A DNA stretch of 22,891 bases, from IMG/VR virus record IMGVR_UViG_3300017786_000157, positions 1 through 22,891 of that record; one strand, given 5' to 3'. A model generated the notes under the pieces. That model was given only the letters and a program-made list of their open reading frames with translations. It had not been told where the DNA came from and ran no database searches. Of this stretch, positions 6,348 to 13,700 are shown piece after piece. The translations under genes were made by a program, and so were the position numbers. This stretch comes from a virus. The stretch's first letter is position 1. Each line of letters begins with the position of its first letter.

Positions 6348-8813
6348 TTATCCTTTAAGTTGGTCTGCTAGTCTTGTAATATAGTCTCTAGTTTCTTTTG
6401 GAAGGTCTGCTTTGTCAGCTCCACTCTCAATCCATTCACGAGTTGCTCCCGGCCCCATGTTATATGCAGCAGCAGCATACTCTAAGTTACCGTCAAACGC
6501 TATATACATGGCTTTAAAGTATTCCTGACCTACACGAGTACGTTCTTTATCACTATCATCTTTAGCAGGTTTAATTCCATATCCCGGCTGTGCAAGAGTC
6601 TCAGGCATCACTTGCATCCTACCGAGAGCGCCTACAGGACTAACTGCGTCAGGGTCATTGTTACTTTCAATCATCGCTACAGCATCATACAGTTTTGTGT
6701 AGTCTTCATCAGAAGCATCTTCTGGCTTGACAAATGAAGCCAGTGGGTTGTCAGGAGTTCCAAAGTCACTTAATAAACTTTGAAGTTGCTTTCCTACCGG
6801 AGATGGGACTTCAGGTTTAAGTACGCCTGTTGTATTCTCACGAGTTCCCGGCGTACCTTTCCGGCCATATTTGTCACTATAAGCCTTATAAGCGTCGTCA
6901 TAGTCCTTTTTAAAGTCTTCTAGTCCTTTTTCGAAACGAGATAATTGCGGAGAACCTTTCTTATACACACTAGCGTTTAGCTGTTTTTCTCGTCTTTTAA
7001 CTTTTATAAGCAGTCTTTCAAGCTTAGCATAATCTTTATGCTGACCGTCGTGAAGGTTTTTACTTCTGCCGTATGTTGGAGCCTCACCTTCAGGCGTATT
7101 CAATCTATAAAACTCTGCTACAGAATATTTACCAGTTTTACCTACTGCATCAGTATCAGTATTAGCATCAGAAGTTGTAGTTGTAGTTGTAGTTGTAGTT
7201 TCAGTTGTAGTTGTATCTTCGGCAGCTTTCTGGTCTAAAATTTGAGCAGCGATGGTTACTTTATCGCCTATCTCAGGAACGCCAGTATACATGCTTGGGT
7301 TGTTAAGAATTTCTTCCATTATGTCTAGTGTTGTTTCAAGCTGATTACCGTCTACCATATCTCTAAAAAAGTCAAAACCTCTGGTTGCTTCGGCTTCGCT
7401 ATTTGGTGCTCGTAGCTTTTTAATAAATATATCACGCTCTTCTTTACCCATGTTGTTCAAAGCGTTATAAATTTTGTTGTCATCATTAACAAGCTTAGTA
7501 GCAATTGCTCGTTTGTTTGTTAGGTTCATGTCCTGCAACGCTTGTAAGGTTTCAAAAACATTACCCTGACCAATAGTATCAGGAGCAGTTTCGCCTGCAA
7601 TACGATTTAAAGCTACTTGACGATAAATCTTTCGGCCTTCATCTTCTGTTCCCATTCCTTGTCTTTCAAATAAAAGACCGGCAGCAACAGTCATTGAAGC
7701 AAATGCTTCCTGCTTTAATAAAAGTTGGGCTGCATACGCAGGGTCTCCCGACTTTATTGAGCCGTTAGATTCTACGTCAATTTGTTTTTCAAACATTGCG
7801 TTAATAGGCGCTGTAATAGCCCCTTGGTTGTTAAACTCAATAACTCCTTGCTTCACAAGATTAGCAGGCATTTTAGCTGCAACTTGAGCAACTGTAAGTT
7901 CTTCAGCATCAGAGACGCTTGAACTTTGTGAAACATTTCCTGACCCATCTAGTCGAACATAGGTTGTATTAGAGACTACATTTCCGTCATTATTTCTATA
8001 ATATGTTGTAGTTGGAATAACAGAAACGTCTATACTTTGCCCAAACATATCTTGACTTTTTATTGTAGTTACTTCGCCAGTTACAGTTGCAGGAACACCT
8101 GCGTCACTTGGCATATTTTTAGCAATGTAATCAGCAACATTAGCGTTCCGTGTTTTTCTCCAAGCATTTCCATAGTCTTCTTGATACTGCTTAGTTGAAG
8201 TGACCATATTGTCGTTGATTAAAGAATCTAAATCTGTATTGTCGTTTCCTGTTAGTCCTTTTACAAAAGGCATCACAAGCCCGGTTAGTGTTTTTTCAGG
8301 CGCACCACTTTTTATTTTGTCTTGATATTTGGCAGCACTACCCGTAGTTAAGTATTCTTTAGTAGCGTCAAAACGCTCATTAAGCGCAGCTACTCTTTTT
8401 TCTTCTAAGCTATTAACTGACTTGTTAAGCCACTTGTTGAACGTGCCTTCGTTGTAATTTCCTGTTGTTCCGTGAACCTTCTGCCACTGATTCGTCAACT
8501 CATCTGTCAACTGCTGTCGAGCCAAGCCTTCAACACCTACTCCATCATCTAAGCTTTTTTGATAAGCAGCTAAATCGTTATTGGCTTCTGTATAGCTTTG
8601 ACCCAAGAGCAGTTGGTTCTTTACCAACTCTTCATTGTTTAAAAATTCTTGGTGTTTAGAATTTGCTACATTTTGTGCTATGCCAAGAGCCGCATTAATA
8701 CCCACAGCTTTCCATGCGCCTTGTCTTGCTTTACGCTCGTTTGTTCTAGCAGTTTTTTCATTTTCGTCACGTATGCCCTGTAATAAAGACTCGCCGTATG
8801 TTGTTGAACTCAT
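6348..8813 (-). CDS. Internal virion protein with C-terminal lytic transglycosylase domain
   Basis: 821 residues, ATG at 8813 with AGAAGGA upstream. The last ~110 residues form a soluble lytic transglycosylase (SLT, goose-lysozyme-like) domain: AVAMIESNND with the presumed catalytic Glu at residue 716, then GALGRMQVMPETL, then AAAAYNMGPGATREWI near 780-790, ending in DYITRLADQLKG. These are the usual E-S, G-x-x-Q-x-M-P and A-Y-N-x-G motifs of the family. Residues 1-530 are mostly helical with no family I can name, and contain many Asn/Gln. A Thr-rich linker near 533-550 separates the two parts. Expected role: carried in the virion and cutting a local hole in the host cell wall during DNA ejection. 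In T7 this enzyme is at the N-terminus of gp16; here it is C-terminal and on a separate protein next to the gp16-like giant. Confidence 0.85.
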   Translation of the reverse strand: MSSTTYGESLLQGIRDENEKTARTNERKARQGAWKAVGINAALGIAQNVANSKHQEFLNNEELVKNQLLLGQSYTEANNDLAAYQKSLDDGVGVEGLARQQLTDELTNQWQKVHGTTGNYNEGTFNKWLNKSVNSLEEKRVAALNERFDATKEYLTTGSAAKYQDKIKSGAPEKTLTGLVMPFVKGLTGNDNTDLDSLINDNMVTSTKQYQEDYGNAWRKTRNANVADYIAKNMPSDAGVPATVTGEVTTIKSQDMFGQSIDVSVIPTTTYYRNNDGNVVSNTTYVRLDGSGNVSQSSSVSDAEELTVAQVAAKMPANLVKQGVIEFNNQGAITAPINAMFEKQIDVESNGSIKSGDPAYAAQLLLKQEAFASMTVAAGLLFERQGMGTEDEGRKIYRQVALNRIAGETAPDTIGQGNVFETLQALQDMNLTNKRAIATKLVNDDNKIYNALNNMGKEERDIFIKKLRAPNSEAEATRGFDFFRDMVDGNQLETTLDIMEEILNNPSMYTGVPEIGDKVTIAAQILDQKAAEDTTTTETTTTTTTTTSDANTDTDAVGKTGKYSVAEFYRLNTPEGEAPTYGRSKNLHDGQHKDYAKLERLLIKVKRREKQLNASVYKKGSPQLSRFEKGLEDFKKDYDDAYKAYSDKYGRKGTPGTRENTTGVLKPEVPSPVGKQLQSLLSDFGTPDNPLASFVKPEDASDEDYTKLYDAVAMIESNNDPDAVSPVGALGRMQVMPETLAQPGYGIKPAKDDSDKERTRVGQEYFKAMYIAFDGNLEYAAAAYNMGPGATREWIESGADKADLPKETRDYITRLADQLKG
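7173..7214 (-). repeat. Hexanucleotide microsatellite encoding a poly-threonine linker
   Basis: The plus strand reads as consecutive agttgt units (7173-7200), then a two-base break, then two more units (7203-7214). On the coding strand this is alternating ACA/ACT codons, giving a nearly pure Thr run with one Glu. Any gain or loss of a unit stays in frame and changes the linker by two Thr, so linker length could vary between strains. Confidence 0.85.
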
Positions 8814-8816
8814 TAT

Positions 8817-9437
8817 TTATTGTCCTTCTGATGGAGCCATTAGGCTAGGTTGCTGAGGAACTTCAGGTTCTACTGCTTCTTCTTCTACTGTAGGAGAAAG
8901 CAAACTAGGAACGCTAGGAAGGCTTTCCATGTCTTGCTCCATGTCTGGAGTTATAAAACCTCTAGGAAGAAAGTCTGAAGATTTTGCTGCTTTACGAAGT
9001 TTTTCTAATCTTTCTTCTTCCATCTGCACACCGAAAACTTTATCGTCTTCTTCATCTTCTTCATCATCAATTTTAAAATCTATATCTAAACGTTCAGCAA
9101 GTGCAATAAGCATATAAGCTAAAGGCTCAGCAAGCATAAGCATAAGGTCAGGATTTACATTTCCTTCTTGAAACTCTTGAAATAAAACGACTTGAACAAT
9201 CTGCATAATAGGTGTTTCATTGCTTAGAGCTTGCATTAAAGCGGGGTATATTTCTGCATCAGTCACATAAGTCCACAAGTATTGATTAGCTTCATGTACG
9301 TTTGTAAACTTTGGAGCTTTTTCATACGGTGCAGGAGAAGCAGGGTCACTAGTAAGCGACTGCCCCGGTATAGGGCCTTGCATAAGACCTCTTTCTTTGT
9401 TGTAATTTTCAATAGATACTTGCTGTTGCTTAGCCAT
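8817..9437 (-). CDS. Conserved phage protein of unknown function in the ejection-protein block
   Basis: 206 residues. The ATG at 9437 overlaps the end of the upstream gene by 8 bp and is preceded by a strong AGGAGG about 11 bases upstream. The central part (about residues 50-120) is helical and hydrophobic, with TDAEIYPALMQALSNE, QIVQVVLFQEFQEG and DLMLMLAEPLAYMLIALAER; it is followed by a very acidic run (DDEEDEEDD) and a Pro/Glu-rich tail. I recall the central block as a conserved pattern in marine podovirus structural clusters but know no function for it. Its place between two probable internal virion proteins is like that of T7 gp14, but I see no sequence basis for equating them. A virion component or an assembly chaperone are both possible. 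Confidence 0.75.
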   Translation of the reverse strand: MAKQQQVSIENYNKERGLMQGPIPGQSLTSDPASPAPYEKAPKFTNVHEANQYLWTYVTDAEIYPALMQALSNETPIMQIVQVVLFQEFQEGNVNPDLMLMLAEPLAYMLIALAERLDIDFKIDDEEDEEDDKVFGVQMEEERLEKLRKAAKSSDFLPRGFITPDMEQDMESLPSVPSLLSPTVEEEAVEPEVPQQPSLMAPSEGQ

Positions 9438-10725: not shown

Positions 10726-13700
10726 TTATTTAATAACTGTTGTTAGCCAAGTATTAGCATCATTAGCATCCTTGGCTGCAATCTTTTCATTACCAATGGC
10801 AGTAGCTAGTAGCTGAGCTTTACGTTGTTCTTCGTTTTCAAAAGACTGTCGAGTATAAGCGGCTGCATCACGCAACTGCTGCCAAACTTGAGTAAGCTCT
10901 TGAGAAGTTAAGTTGTAACTTATCTGAGCGTTCTGTTGGTTTGCTGCATTTTGAGCTGCGGTATCAGCTAAATTAGATTGCCGTCTCCACTGTATATTAG
11001 ACTGCTCAACAGCCTGTGCATTTGCTGCATTCCATTGGTCACGCTGAAAGTCTTGTTGCTCATTAAACTTTGCAATGTCTGTTTCAAGCTGTTGTTCAAA
11101 CTGGTCAGCCTGTAGTTTATTGCCTGCGTTTAAAGCTGCAATACGGTTCTTTTCAGTAGCGTTAAACTGCTCCCTAGCTGTATTAGCGCTTACATTATAC
11201 TGCTCTATCTGCACTCCAAGATTAGCCATAAACTGGTCTGCTTGTTGCTGACTAGAGGCGTTAAACTGAGCCGCTGCGTTCTGTGCTGACTGATTACTTA
11301 ACAAAGCTTGTTGATTTTGTTGAGCTGTTAAAACTGCTGATTGTTGTCTATTACTTAAATTAGCCATATCCATTTGCAAAAAAGACTGTGCATTTGTAAC
11401 TGCAAGTTTAGTATTCTTGTCAAGGTTCGCCATATCCATAGAAGCCATAGCGGTTGCTGTTTGTAGTGCAGCCTGTTGGTCAGCGCTAAATTTAGAAGCT
11501 GTCATGTTTTGCATAAACTTACTATTAGTTAATTCAACTTGCTGAGCTGCGTTAAACTTAGCTAAATCAATTCCAGCGTTAGTTTGTGCATTTACAACTG
11601 CTCTTTGTTGGTCAACATTTAACTGTGCAACATTCATCTCTGCTGCAATCTTACCCTGAAGTAAGTTAGTCTGCATACGTGTGTTAAGGTTAGCTAGTTC
11701 TGTTTGTTGAGCGTTGCTAAGATTTTCAGATGCTGCTTGGTTCTGAGCACTCAAGTTAGCTAGTCGCATTTGCTGGTCATTAGACAGGTTAGCCAAGTTC
11801 ATTTGCTGTTGGAAGCCTGCATTCTTAGCTAAGAAGTCTGCGGCAATCTGCTTGTCTTGAGCCGTAGCACTTTGGATAGCAGAAGCGTTTGCCTGAGCCA
11901 TTGGAATAGCACTTTGAATAACAGCGTTAAACAAAGCATCACGACCAACACTTGAAGCACTCATTCCTCGTCGAGCTAGGTTAGCTTCAACTTTAGCGAG
12001 AGCCGGTCTAGCCCATGCAGGAACTTCGCCATCTTCCATGCCAGACATAAGAGATTCCATCTGTACATCAATCAAAGCTTCTTTCGGAAGACCTGAAAGT
12101 GTAGTACGCACATCTTCAGGAAGGTCTTCCATTTCATCTGCAATAAGGTCTGGTTCGTCTGCAAGGCGATTAGCAATTGCGTCGTCTGATAAACCAGCAG
12201 CTTTAAGCTTTTTAACAGCTTTCTTTTTAGCATCTGCGCCTTGTATTGCTCGTTTCTGAGATTGATTATAGTCATACATACTCATAATTTCAGCAGCTTC
12301 ACCAGTAGCAGGTTCGCCTACAATAGCTTCACGTTCCTTAGCTTCAGCTTCTTTTGTTTCTTCTACAGTAGCTACTTTACCAGTCACTGTATTTACATAA
12401 GCACCCTCACTAGAGCTGTACTCAACTTCCCCTGCTTTTGCAGCCTCTTCAGCAAGTGTGTCTCTAGTAGCTGCTGTAGCTTTAGCGCCTTCTGAAAGCG
12501 TAGCGTCTTCTTGGGCTGCAATAGCTTTAGAGTCTTCTTCAATGCTTCCTTGCGCTGTTTTTACAGGGCGCATAGCAGAAGTTTTATAAAACTCTTCTAA
12601 CTCAGTTTCGTGTTGTGCTAAAGCTTCTTCAAATGCCGGAGTACCTCCTTTTCCTACAAAGTCTTTACGTAAAGGCTTTGGAGGCGGAACCCCAATTGTA
12701 GTCGCTTCCATACTAGAAGCTGTTACATCTGTAGGCTTAGAAACTTCTGTTTTAGACTTATAGTCAGCCAAAGCTGCCTCAAACTGGTGTTGAGACTCGT
12801 AATCTTGTCTTACAGGCTTCGCTGTCGTTTGAGCAGCTGTTACTGATTCAGCAGTAACTGTGTCATCTTCTGTTCTGGTTATCTCAGCACTGTCATTAAG
12901 TTTTTGAGTCTTAGAAACAGGTGTTATTGTGTTTTCTTTAGAAACAGTATCTACAGCTACTGTAGGAGCAGTAACGTCTGGGCCTGTTATTTCTATATCT
13001 GTAGGAGCTTCAGAATCTCTGCCTGATTTTACGGTTACATTCGCACCGCTTTCATCTACATTTCCTTCATTTCCTTTACCGTCTGGTAAACCCTTATCTC
13101 CTGTATTAGCCATATCATCATTCCCATCGCTGTCGTTATTATTATTACCGCCGCCGCTAGTTCCGTCACCAGTAGGGTTATCTATTTGGTTGTTTGTGTT
13201 GCCTTCTTCTGCGCCGCCTCTATCATGCCAAGTTCTAACAAAGTCATACATGTCTTCTTGATAATCTTGATATTCGTTGTTTCGAGTTTCCCAATCATCA
13301 TACGCAGCGTTAAATTCTGCGTCAGTCATGTTTTCAAATTGACTTTTATTTCTGTCTGGCTTACCCGGTCTTTGTTGAAACTGTAAAGGAGCTTCGTGGT
13401 CAATTTGTGTTCCACGAATAACAGTTCTTTGGTAGTCTCTTTCAAGTTTACTTACTTTACCATCGCCATCCATATCGTAGTAATCTGTAAAACTTTTTGC
13501 TGCTTGACCGCCTTCGCCGGGGCTTCCAAACGGCCCTTGGAAAGCAGGCATTTCAGTTCCAGTAGGTTTAAAGTCTACTGCGTTTTCAAAATCATCTGGG
13601 TCATAAGCAGGGTATTCAGGTTCTTCAGCAAACCCCGGCCCACCATAGTTAGGGCTTTCTGGGCCTTGGGCAGCTTCCCAAGCAGCTAAAGCTGTTCTAA

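Follow-up and report, generated by a model that had tools for sequence, protein, structure and literature searches.

A helix-prone, strictly 11-residue-phased repeat in HMO-2011-type podoviruses and its possible role as the wall of a DNA tube

Described helical systems and the array locus

Among described helical assemblies, untwisted barrels of the TolC type are built from helices that make hydrophobic contacts to either side, and tetrabrachion and other right-handed hendecad coiled coils show a long gap-free 11-residue periodicity with a single core stripe. The only relevant case of hendecads in phages that we found in the literature was the H protein of phiX174, a phage that crosses the Gram-negative envelope; H forms a decameric helical tube, 170 Å long, with 3 hendecads followed by 11 heptads, and 18 of the 23 inward positions of the tube are N, Q or R (PMC7354561). 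Long helical proteins are also known from T7 (gp14/15/16), P22 (gp7/20/16), Sf6 (gp12, a decamer tube) and Pseudomonas phage DEV (gp72/73) (PMC8954989, PMC4755594, PMC10925440). HMO-2011-type phages have been described as one of the most abundant marine viral groups, and those described are short-tailed (PMC9038755). The repeat-bearing protein examined here (the array protein) is nameless in the databases searched.

The window, by which we mean the whole stretch of DNA analysed (22,891 nucleotides), is a 22.9-kb viral contig without a DNA polymerase module. Its synteny is that of HMO-2011-type podoviruses, with MCP, tail, amidase-like, array and cassette genes (Table 1). Matches to the array protein by tblastn included HMO-2011, HTVC103P/104P/115P/033P, Roseobacter CRP phages, Vibrio CHOED, Aeromonas MQM1 and 1233, Pseudoalteromonas Slicky01, Sinorhizobium phiM6 and Rhizobium phages, and its entries in these relatives were always unnamed or carried an uninformative automatic name. 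At least 582 relatives were present in IMG/VR. A further 14 loci came from metagenome-assembled or single-cell bacterial genomes and are probably viral contigs; contigs L123-L136, binned as Campylobacteraceae, Flavobacteriales, Sphingobacteriales, Maricaulis and others, are probably for the most part mis-binned phage contigs. Scans of the array family against PHROG and Pfam found no family that covers the protein and no match to a tape-measure PHROG, and a sequence search of the PDB gave no match. The presence of its C-terminal motif in T4-like cyanophages was put to the test and was not confirmed in the phage collection.

Table 1. Features of the array gene and the adjoining cassette, with positions in the window
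Feature	Window positions	Strand	Basis or remark
Array-bearing ORF, 1173 aa	10726..14247	(-)	HMO-2011 gp25 / CHOED gp13 / HTVC103P gp59 family
EF-hand-like loop, canonical, residues 258-269 (DMDGDGKVSKLE)	13441-13476	(-)	
Conserved helical N-anchor domain, residues 741-797 (PAWARPAL..NLARRGMSASSVGRDALFNAVIQSAIPMAQ)	11857..12027	(-)	Alignment; AF2 helices, pLDDT about 80
16 stave-type hendecads, residues 808-983, consensus A-N-L-S/Q-x-E-Q-Q-M/A-D-L	11299..11826	(-)	Two hydrophobic edges, 22-residue super-period
About 10 F-type hendecads, residues 984-1093 (F-N-A....h-E-Q)	10969..11298	(-)	AF2: single continuous helix
Conserved non-array C-terminal domain, residues 1094-1173	10729..10968	(-)	Anchor profile from 1080
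Cassette gene 1, 424 aa	9430..10704	(-)	Lys/Gly-rich amphipathic N-terminus, one hydrophobic stretch; weak tape-measure PHROG match
Cassette gene 2, 206 aa, PIPGxSLT..PWExPP family	8817..9437	(-)	Adjoins array gene in 10 of 10 phage relatives examined
Cassette gene 3, 821 aa	6348..8813	(-)	C-terminal SLT transglycosylase, residues 708-802, window 6408-6692
Cassette gene 4, 2068 aa	135..6341	(-)	PHROG 7348

Phase and length of the array

The original prediction, made from the letters of the sequence, had divided residues 808-1126 of the 1173-residue ORF, which map exactly to window positions 11826..10870, into 29 gap-free units of 11 residues. Identity autocorrelation over the array segment gave z values of 4.2 at lag 11, 8.9 at lag 22, 4.6 at lag 33 and 7.4 at lag 44, with further peaks at lags 55 (z 4.0) and 66 (z 5.7), and lags 10, 12, 21 and 23 were depleted (z about -2 or below zero). 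The segment thus has a genuine period of 11 residues, above what chance would give. A super-period of 22 residues in the first half was confirmed, as was the change to F/Y/W...Q units in the second half, and about 26 of the 29 units were retained (16 stave-type and about 10 F-type). The last three (residues 1094-1126) were not, as they did not fit the stave profile and are sited within the conserved C-terminal domain. Fifteen of the 16 stave units at residues 808-983 scored positive on the family unit profile, and their consensus in the window itself is A-N-L-S-x-x-Q-Q-M-D-L.

Array length was measured across the family as the distance between separate N-anchor and C-anchor profiles, with the window as reference. 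In all 130 relatives the difference from the window was an exact multiple of 11, with 22 distinct lengths ranging from -154 to +781 residues, and a separate regular-expression measure also gave multiples of 11 (68 of 68). Since 15 of the 22 distinct lengths were odd multiples, the quantum is 11 residues and not 22. Given that at least 21 changes are needed, the chance of such steps is about 11 to the minus 21. Arrays in the family hold about 12 to 97 units, corresponding to about 19 to 158 nm as a single helix, and the longest runs for 1087 residues unbroken, with internal repeats of 55, 110 and 220 residues. The register set by the anchors was the best of the 11 in every one of 2462 sliding 44-residue windows, scored with a profile trained on the same family. 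In the rest of the gene the phase is broken by indels (ins5@740, del1@766), whereas ordinary small indels inside the array were absent in all 130 relatives. Homologues with a broken 11-residue frame, named beforehand as evidence against the array, were thus not found, and the gap-free frame is stronger than had been claimed. Among relatives with long arrays (L022:830-6892, L085, L087, L028, L027, L024, L023, L021) we also observed lengths rising by 110 residues, or 10 hendecads (+121, +231, +341, +451, +561, +781).

Recombination between repeats yields whole units, and some adjacent 110-residue blocks in the long arrays are about 60% identical, as expected if the steps of 11 were a structurally meaningless by-product of repeat duplication and loss. 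We regard this explanation as rather improbable, because the divergence of most units is too great for slippage and because recombination cannot purge ordinary small indels. With small indels elsewhere in the gene and none in the array, selection must remove them, and we read the phase lock as selected. The 11-residue quantum, exceptionless in 130 relatives, is an unusually clean structural constraint legible in sequence, and it would be so even without a conduit function.

Faces of the repeat unit

A Fourier peak at 11/3, which had been proposed as a check, failed to appear: its relative power was 0.1 over the array and significant in neither half. The significant peaks were at 2.2 residues (22.4 on the KD scale, against a shuffle 95% level of 8.6) and at about 2.75 residues. 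With one sample per residue, the frequencies 5/11 and 6/11 coincide, and 6/11 is the second harmonic of 3/11; the 2.2-residue (11/5) peak therefore points to two opposite hydrophobic edges per helix rather than to a single stripe facing lipid or a core. Part of the 2.75-residue peak stems from a conserved Gln, position 7, which is flanked by the two hydrophobic positions of one edge; a simple two-stripe picture leaves this peak unexplained. A beta-solenoid was considered as the source of the 2.2-residue peak and set aside on account of the lack of proline, 1% glycine, a high content of Ala/Gln/Leu/Met and the all-helix prediction.

Unit statistics were pooled from 93 non-redundant relatives comprising 33,604 array residues, of which proline made up 0.0% and glycine 1.1%. 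On an 11/3 wheel one edge of the stave unit is hydrophobic through positions 3/11 and the opposite edge through positions 1/5/9; charges occupy positions 6/10, and Gln/Ser/Asn/Thr occupy positions 4/8. The hydrophobic axis (136/316 degrees) and the charge axis (228 degrees) are separated by 88.6 degrees, with the N/Q/S/T centre at about 69 degrees, and 21 of 20,000 position permutations equalled this face pattern on all three measures. The second hydrophobic harmonic of the unit was 1.39 against 0.29 for the first. This wheel presupposes the pitch of an 11/3 helix; AF2 (below) speaks for a helix and leaves the pitch unaddressed. HMO-2011-type and related podoviruses thus conserve a repeat that is prone to form helix, free of proline and strictly phased at 11 residues; its unit, read on an 11/3 helix, combines two opposite hydrophobic edges with a charged face and an uncharged amide/hydroxyl face. 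Lipid-binding 11/3 helices have one hydrophobic face, and with a first harmonic so far below the second a membrane-active amphipathic helix like those of apolipoproteins or alpha-synuclein, raised earlier as an alternative, is very improbable, although the 11-residue repeats and the short hydrophobic C-terminal tails of most relatives would suit it.

An AF2 monomer run of residues 690-1173, with 60 relatives, gave an all-helical model without any strand at low confidence (pLDDT 71.9, pTM 0.37); a globular fold, named beforehand as evidence against the array, was not predicted. The F-type array was modelled as one helix (residues 1000-1111, 112 residues), and the stave helices were cut at the A-N-L-S motifs. 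These breaks may be artefacts of folding the protein alone without its partners; it is also possible that the kinks are real, the S/T/N/D-rich position 4 providing good helix caps. The array model was uninformative in Foldseek against the PDB (best E 1.2), and a search of BFVD returned homologues only, with TM under 0.35.

The predicted 112-residue helix, together with the one main hydrophobic face of the F-type half (35% of pooled hydrophobic power at 11/3), would suit a few-stranded long rod, that is, a trimeric or tetrameric right-handed coiled coil whose length is free to drift and which could serve as the needle of a tail, the shaft of a tail fibre or a whisker on the head, and a shaft would tolerate the wide length variation. 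The core of such a rod needs one stripe and an 11/3 peak, however; with stripes on two opposite sides and 6% of its power at 11/3, the stave half differs from tetrabrachion-type coiled coils with their single stripe, and the array as a whole departs from the canonical right-handed hendecad form. A receptor-binding C-terminal domain is absent, the unit profile was unmatched by the P22 needle and the T7 fibre, and the array gene adjoins a putative ejection cassette. We consider a rod of this kind unlikely. An alpha/beta coiled coil (beta-layers from nonad or hexad insertions) was rejected, as all length changes are multiples of 11 and the consensus differs from the aliphatic-A-T-K-polar-D/E motif (PMC4786415).

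The family unit profile, with family composition removed, was used to score 12 control proteins (phiX174 H and 11 helical or phage proteins). Only H stood out on every scoring, over its crystallographic hendecads (residues 151-183), with best windows at 141-173 (full alphabet) and 145-177 (reduced alphabet) and all of them within residues 126-190. Its reduced (grouped) score of 22.9 was reached by 0.5% of 600 phage ORFs and by none of 200 shuffles. Placed in the family register, Q151/Q162/Q173 of H fall on position 8 and Q158/Q169/Q180 on position 4, the predicted lumen face. H (PDB 4JPP) and the array share, position by position, the hendecad pattern A-x-M/L-Q/S-x-E-x-Q-x-E-I/L, and in H amide side chains line the lumen face (PMC7354561), as predicted for the array. 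The two differ in that H continues with heptads after 3 hendecads and the array family has about 12-97 hendecads, and in that the array family, unlike H, belongs to dsDNA tailed phages. A profile-profile comparison by hhalign (A2 against H) indicated no homology (probability 0.4%, E 0.16). On this short stretch of one protein, the array and H are alike in design, perhaps by convergence.

No match to the unit profile was obtained for the P22 portal, gp26 (needle), gp7 and gp16, for T7 gp14, gp15 and gp17, or for TolC, whose barrel type likewise has two-sided hydrophobic contacts. The P22 scaffold, T7 gp16 and P22 gp20 reached the level of 2.7%, 1.5% and 3.3% of background, respectively, each in one of four scorings.

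Neighbouring genes and a possible DNA conduit

The array gene lies immediately upstream of a conserved four-gene cassette, and the order array gene, 424-like, 206-like, 821-like and 2068-like is kept in most relatives with enough flank. Residues about 700-970 of cassette gene 4 resembled 'particle internal protein' and virion proteins of Pseudomonas and Vibrio podoviruses. Gene order, sizes and the muralytic domain suggest that the four-gene block is a probable ejection cassette; in this it brings to mind those of T7, P22 and DEV, small-middle-giant sets that end the structural module and include a transglycosylase domain (PMC8954989, PMC10925440). The array protein itself, from its gene neighbourhood, would be a virion protein. 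Sequence homology between the cassette and the T7/P22 ejection proteins was not detected, with no match in profile comparisons of cassette gene 3 with T7 gp15 and P22 gp20 or of cassette gene 2 with T7 gp14, and the unit profile was unconvincing in those T7/P22 proteins tested. Compared with T7 or P22 the array protein appears to be an extra component, having no evident counterpart there.

For the product of cassette gene 2, AF2 modelled residues about 31-120 with confidence as a helical core (pLDDT over 90). Foldseek of this model gave no match with E under 2.6, scans against PHROGs and Pfam gave nothing useful, and the best fold match on a second look (Z 5.8) was an unrelated ligase, from which no role could be read. 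In cassette gene 3 a Thr-rich linker precedes the SLT domain, and the gene is shorter in most relatives (about 400-760 aa), where the SLT enzyme may be absent or located elsewhere.

We propose that many copies of the array could stand side by side as parallel staves, their hydrophobic stripes sealing edge to edge, and would close into a wide barrel or tube of alpha helices; like the tube of phiX174 H, it would have its charges on the outside and Gln/Asn/Ser facing the inside. Gain or loss of a whole 11-residue unit would keep all stave faces and lateral contacts aligned, and the restriction of length changes to steps of 11 would follow from this. The protein would be carried in the virion, as gene order suggests, and used at ejection with the neighbouring proteins; these steps, and its part in a conduit for DNA across the envelope, are less certain than the barrel. 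As a structure, a multi-helix barrel or sheet is our best reading, with roughly even odds. Helical staves of a wide barrel serving as a DNA conduit are our best overall reading, to which we give a probability of about 0.4.

The original prediction had likewise proposed the staves of a trans-envelope DNA conduit, on the argument that one helix of this length would be enough to span a Gram-negative envelope. The two-edged unit and the hendecad match to phiX174 H favour the staves, but the length argument does not hold across the family. No fixed envelope gap accommodates arrays that range from about 12 units (about 19 nm) to about 97 units (about 158 nm), the longest of which exceed any envelope, and this is the strongest objection to a conduit. 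Either the tube extends beyond the envelope, or only part of the array is straight, or the protein has another role such as filling or ordering the head.

The last of these would be a protein packed in the head, as a core protein or one that spools DNA, or else a ruler of the tape-measure kind, its helices folded into hairpins. Weak matches of the neighbouring genes to 'tape measure' and 'internal virion' PHROGs, the repeated breaks of the stave helix in AF2 and the 110-residue steps of the long arrays, as expected of paired 55-residue arms, are all consistent with it, and tail tape-measure proteins are likewise long helical proteins of the virion module that change length stepwise. Single-unit and odd-multiple changes are common, however (15 of 22 lengths), and would upset paired arms, and in contrast to tail tape-measure proteins the array occurs in phages whose described members are short-tailed, with no long tail to measure (PMC9038755). 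This too seems unlikely to us.

Should the array indeed form the wall of a tube, amide-lined hendecad staves would have been put to use for DNA passage a second time, independently, and the design rule could be tested on natural variants of about 12 to 97 units in length. The fullest form of the conduit reading, in which an unnamed tailed-phage family builds from 11-residue quanta an amide-lined alpha-helical DNA tube that resembles phiX174 H by convergence, exceeds it several-fold to tens-fold in length counted in hendecads, and is tuned in length by whole-unit steps between related marine phages, is tentative and on balance somewhat doubtful.

Outside the array, the N-terminal region of the protein is rich in Pro/Thr/Glu and probably disordered. 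The EF-hand-like loop in this region (Table 1) is not conserved, being present in only 2 of 130 relatives (the window and L002), and it has no part in the mechanism. HMO-2011 gp25 (L035:14269-16389) has an extra C-terminal stretch of ~60-70 residues (VYGEGDPRWYAFRIWLKYKAPKW...) beyond the array domain, an extension absent from the other aligned relatives. Most array proteins end in a short hydrophobic or amphipathic helical tail of variable sequence (e.g. L039, L038, L043, L068), some with glycine zippers such as ALGGLLGTFIG, and this tail is possibly a docking or membrane-contact peptide.
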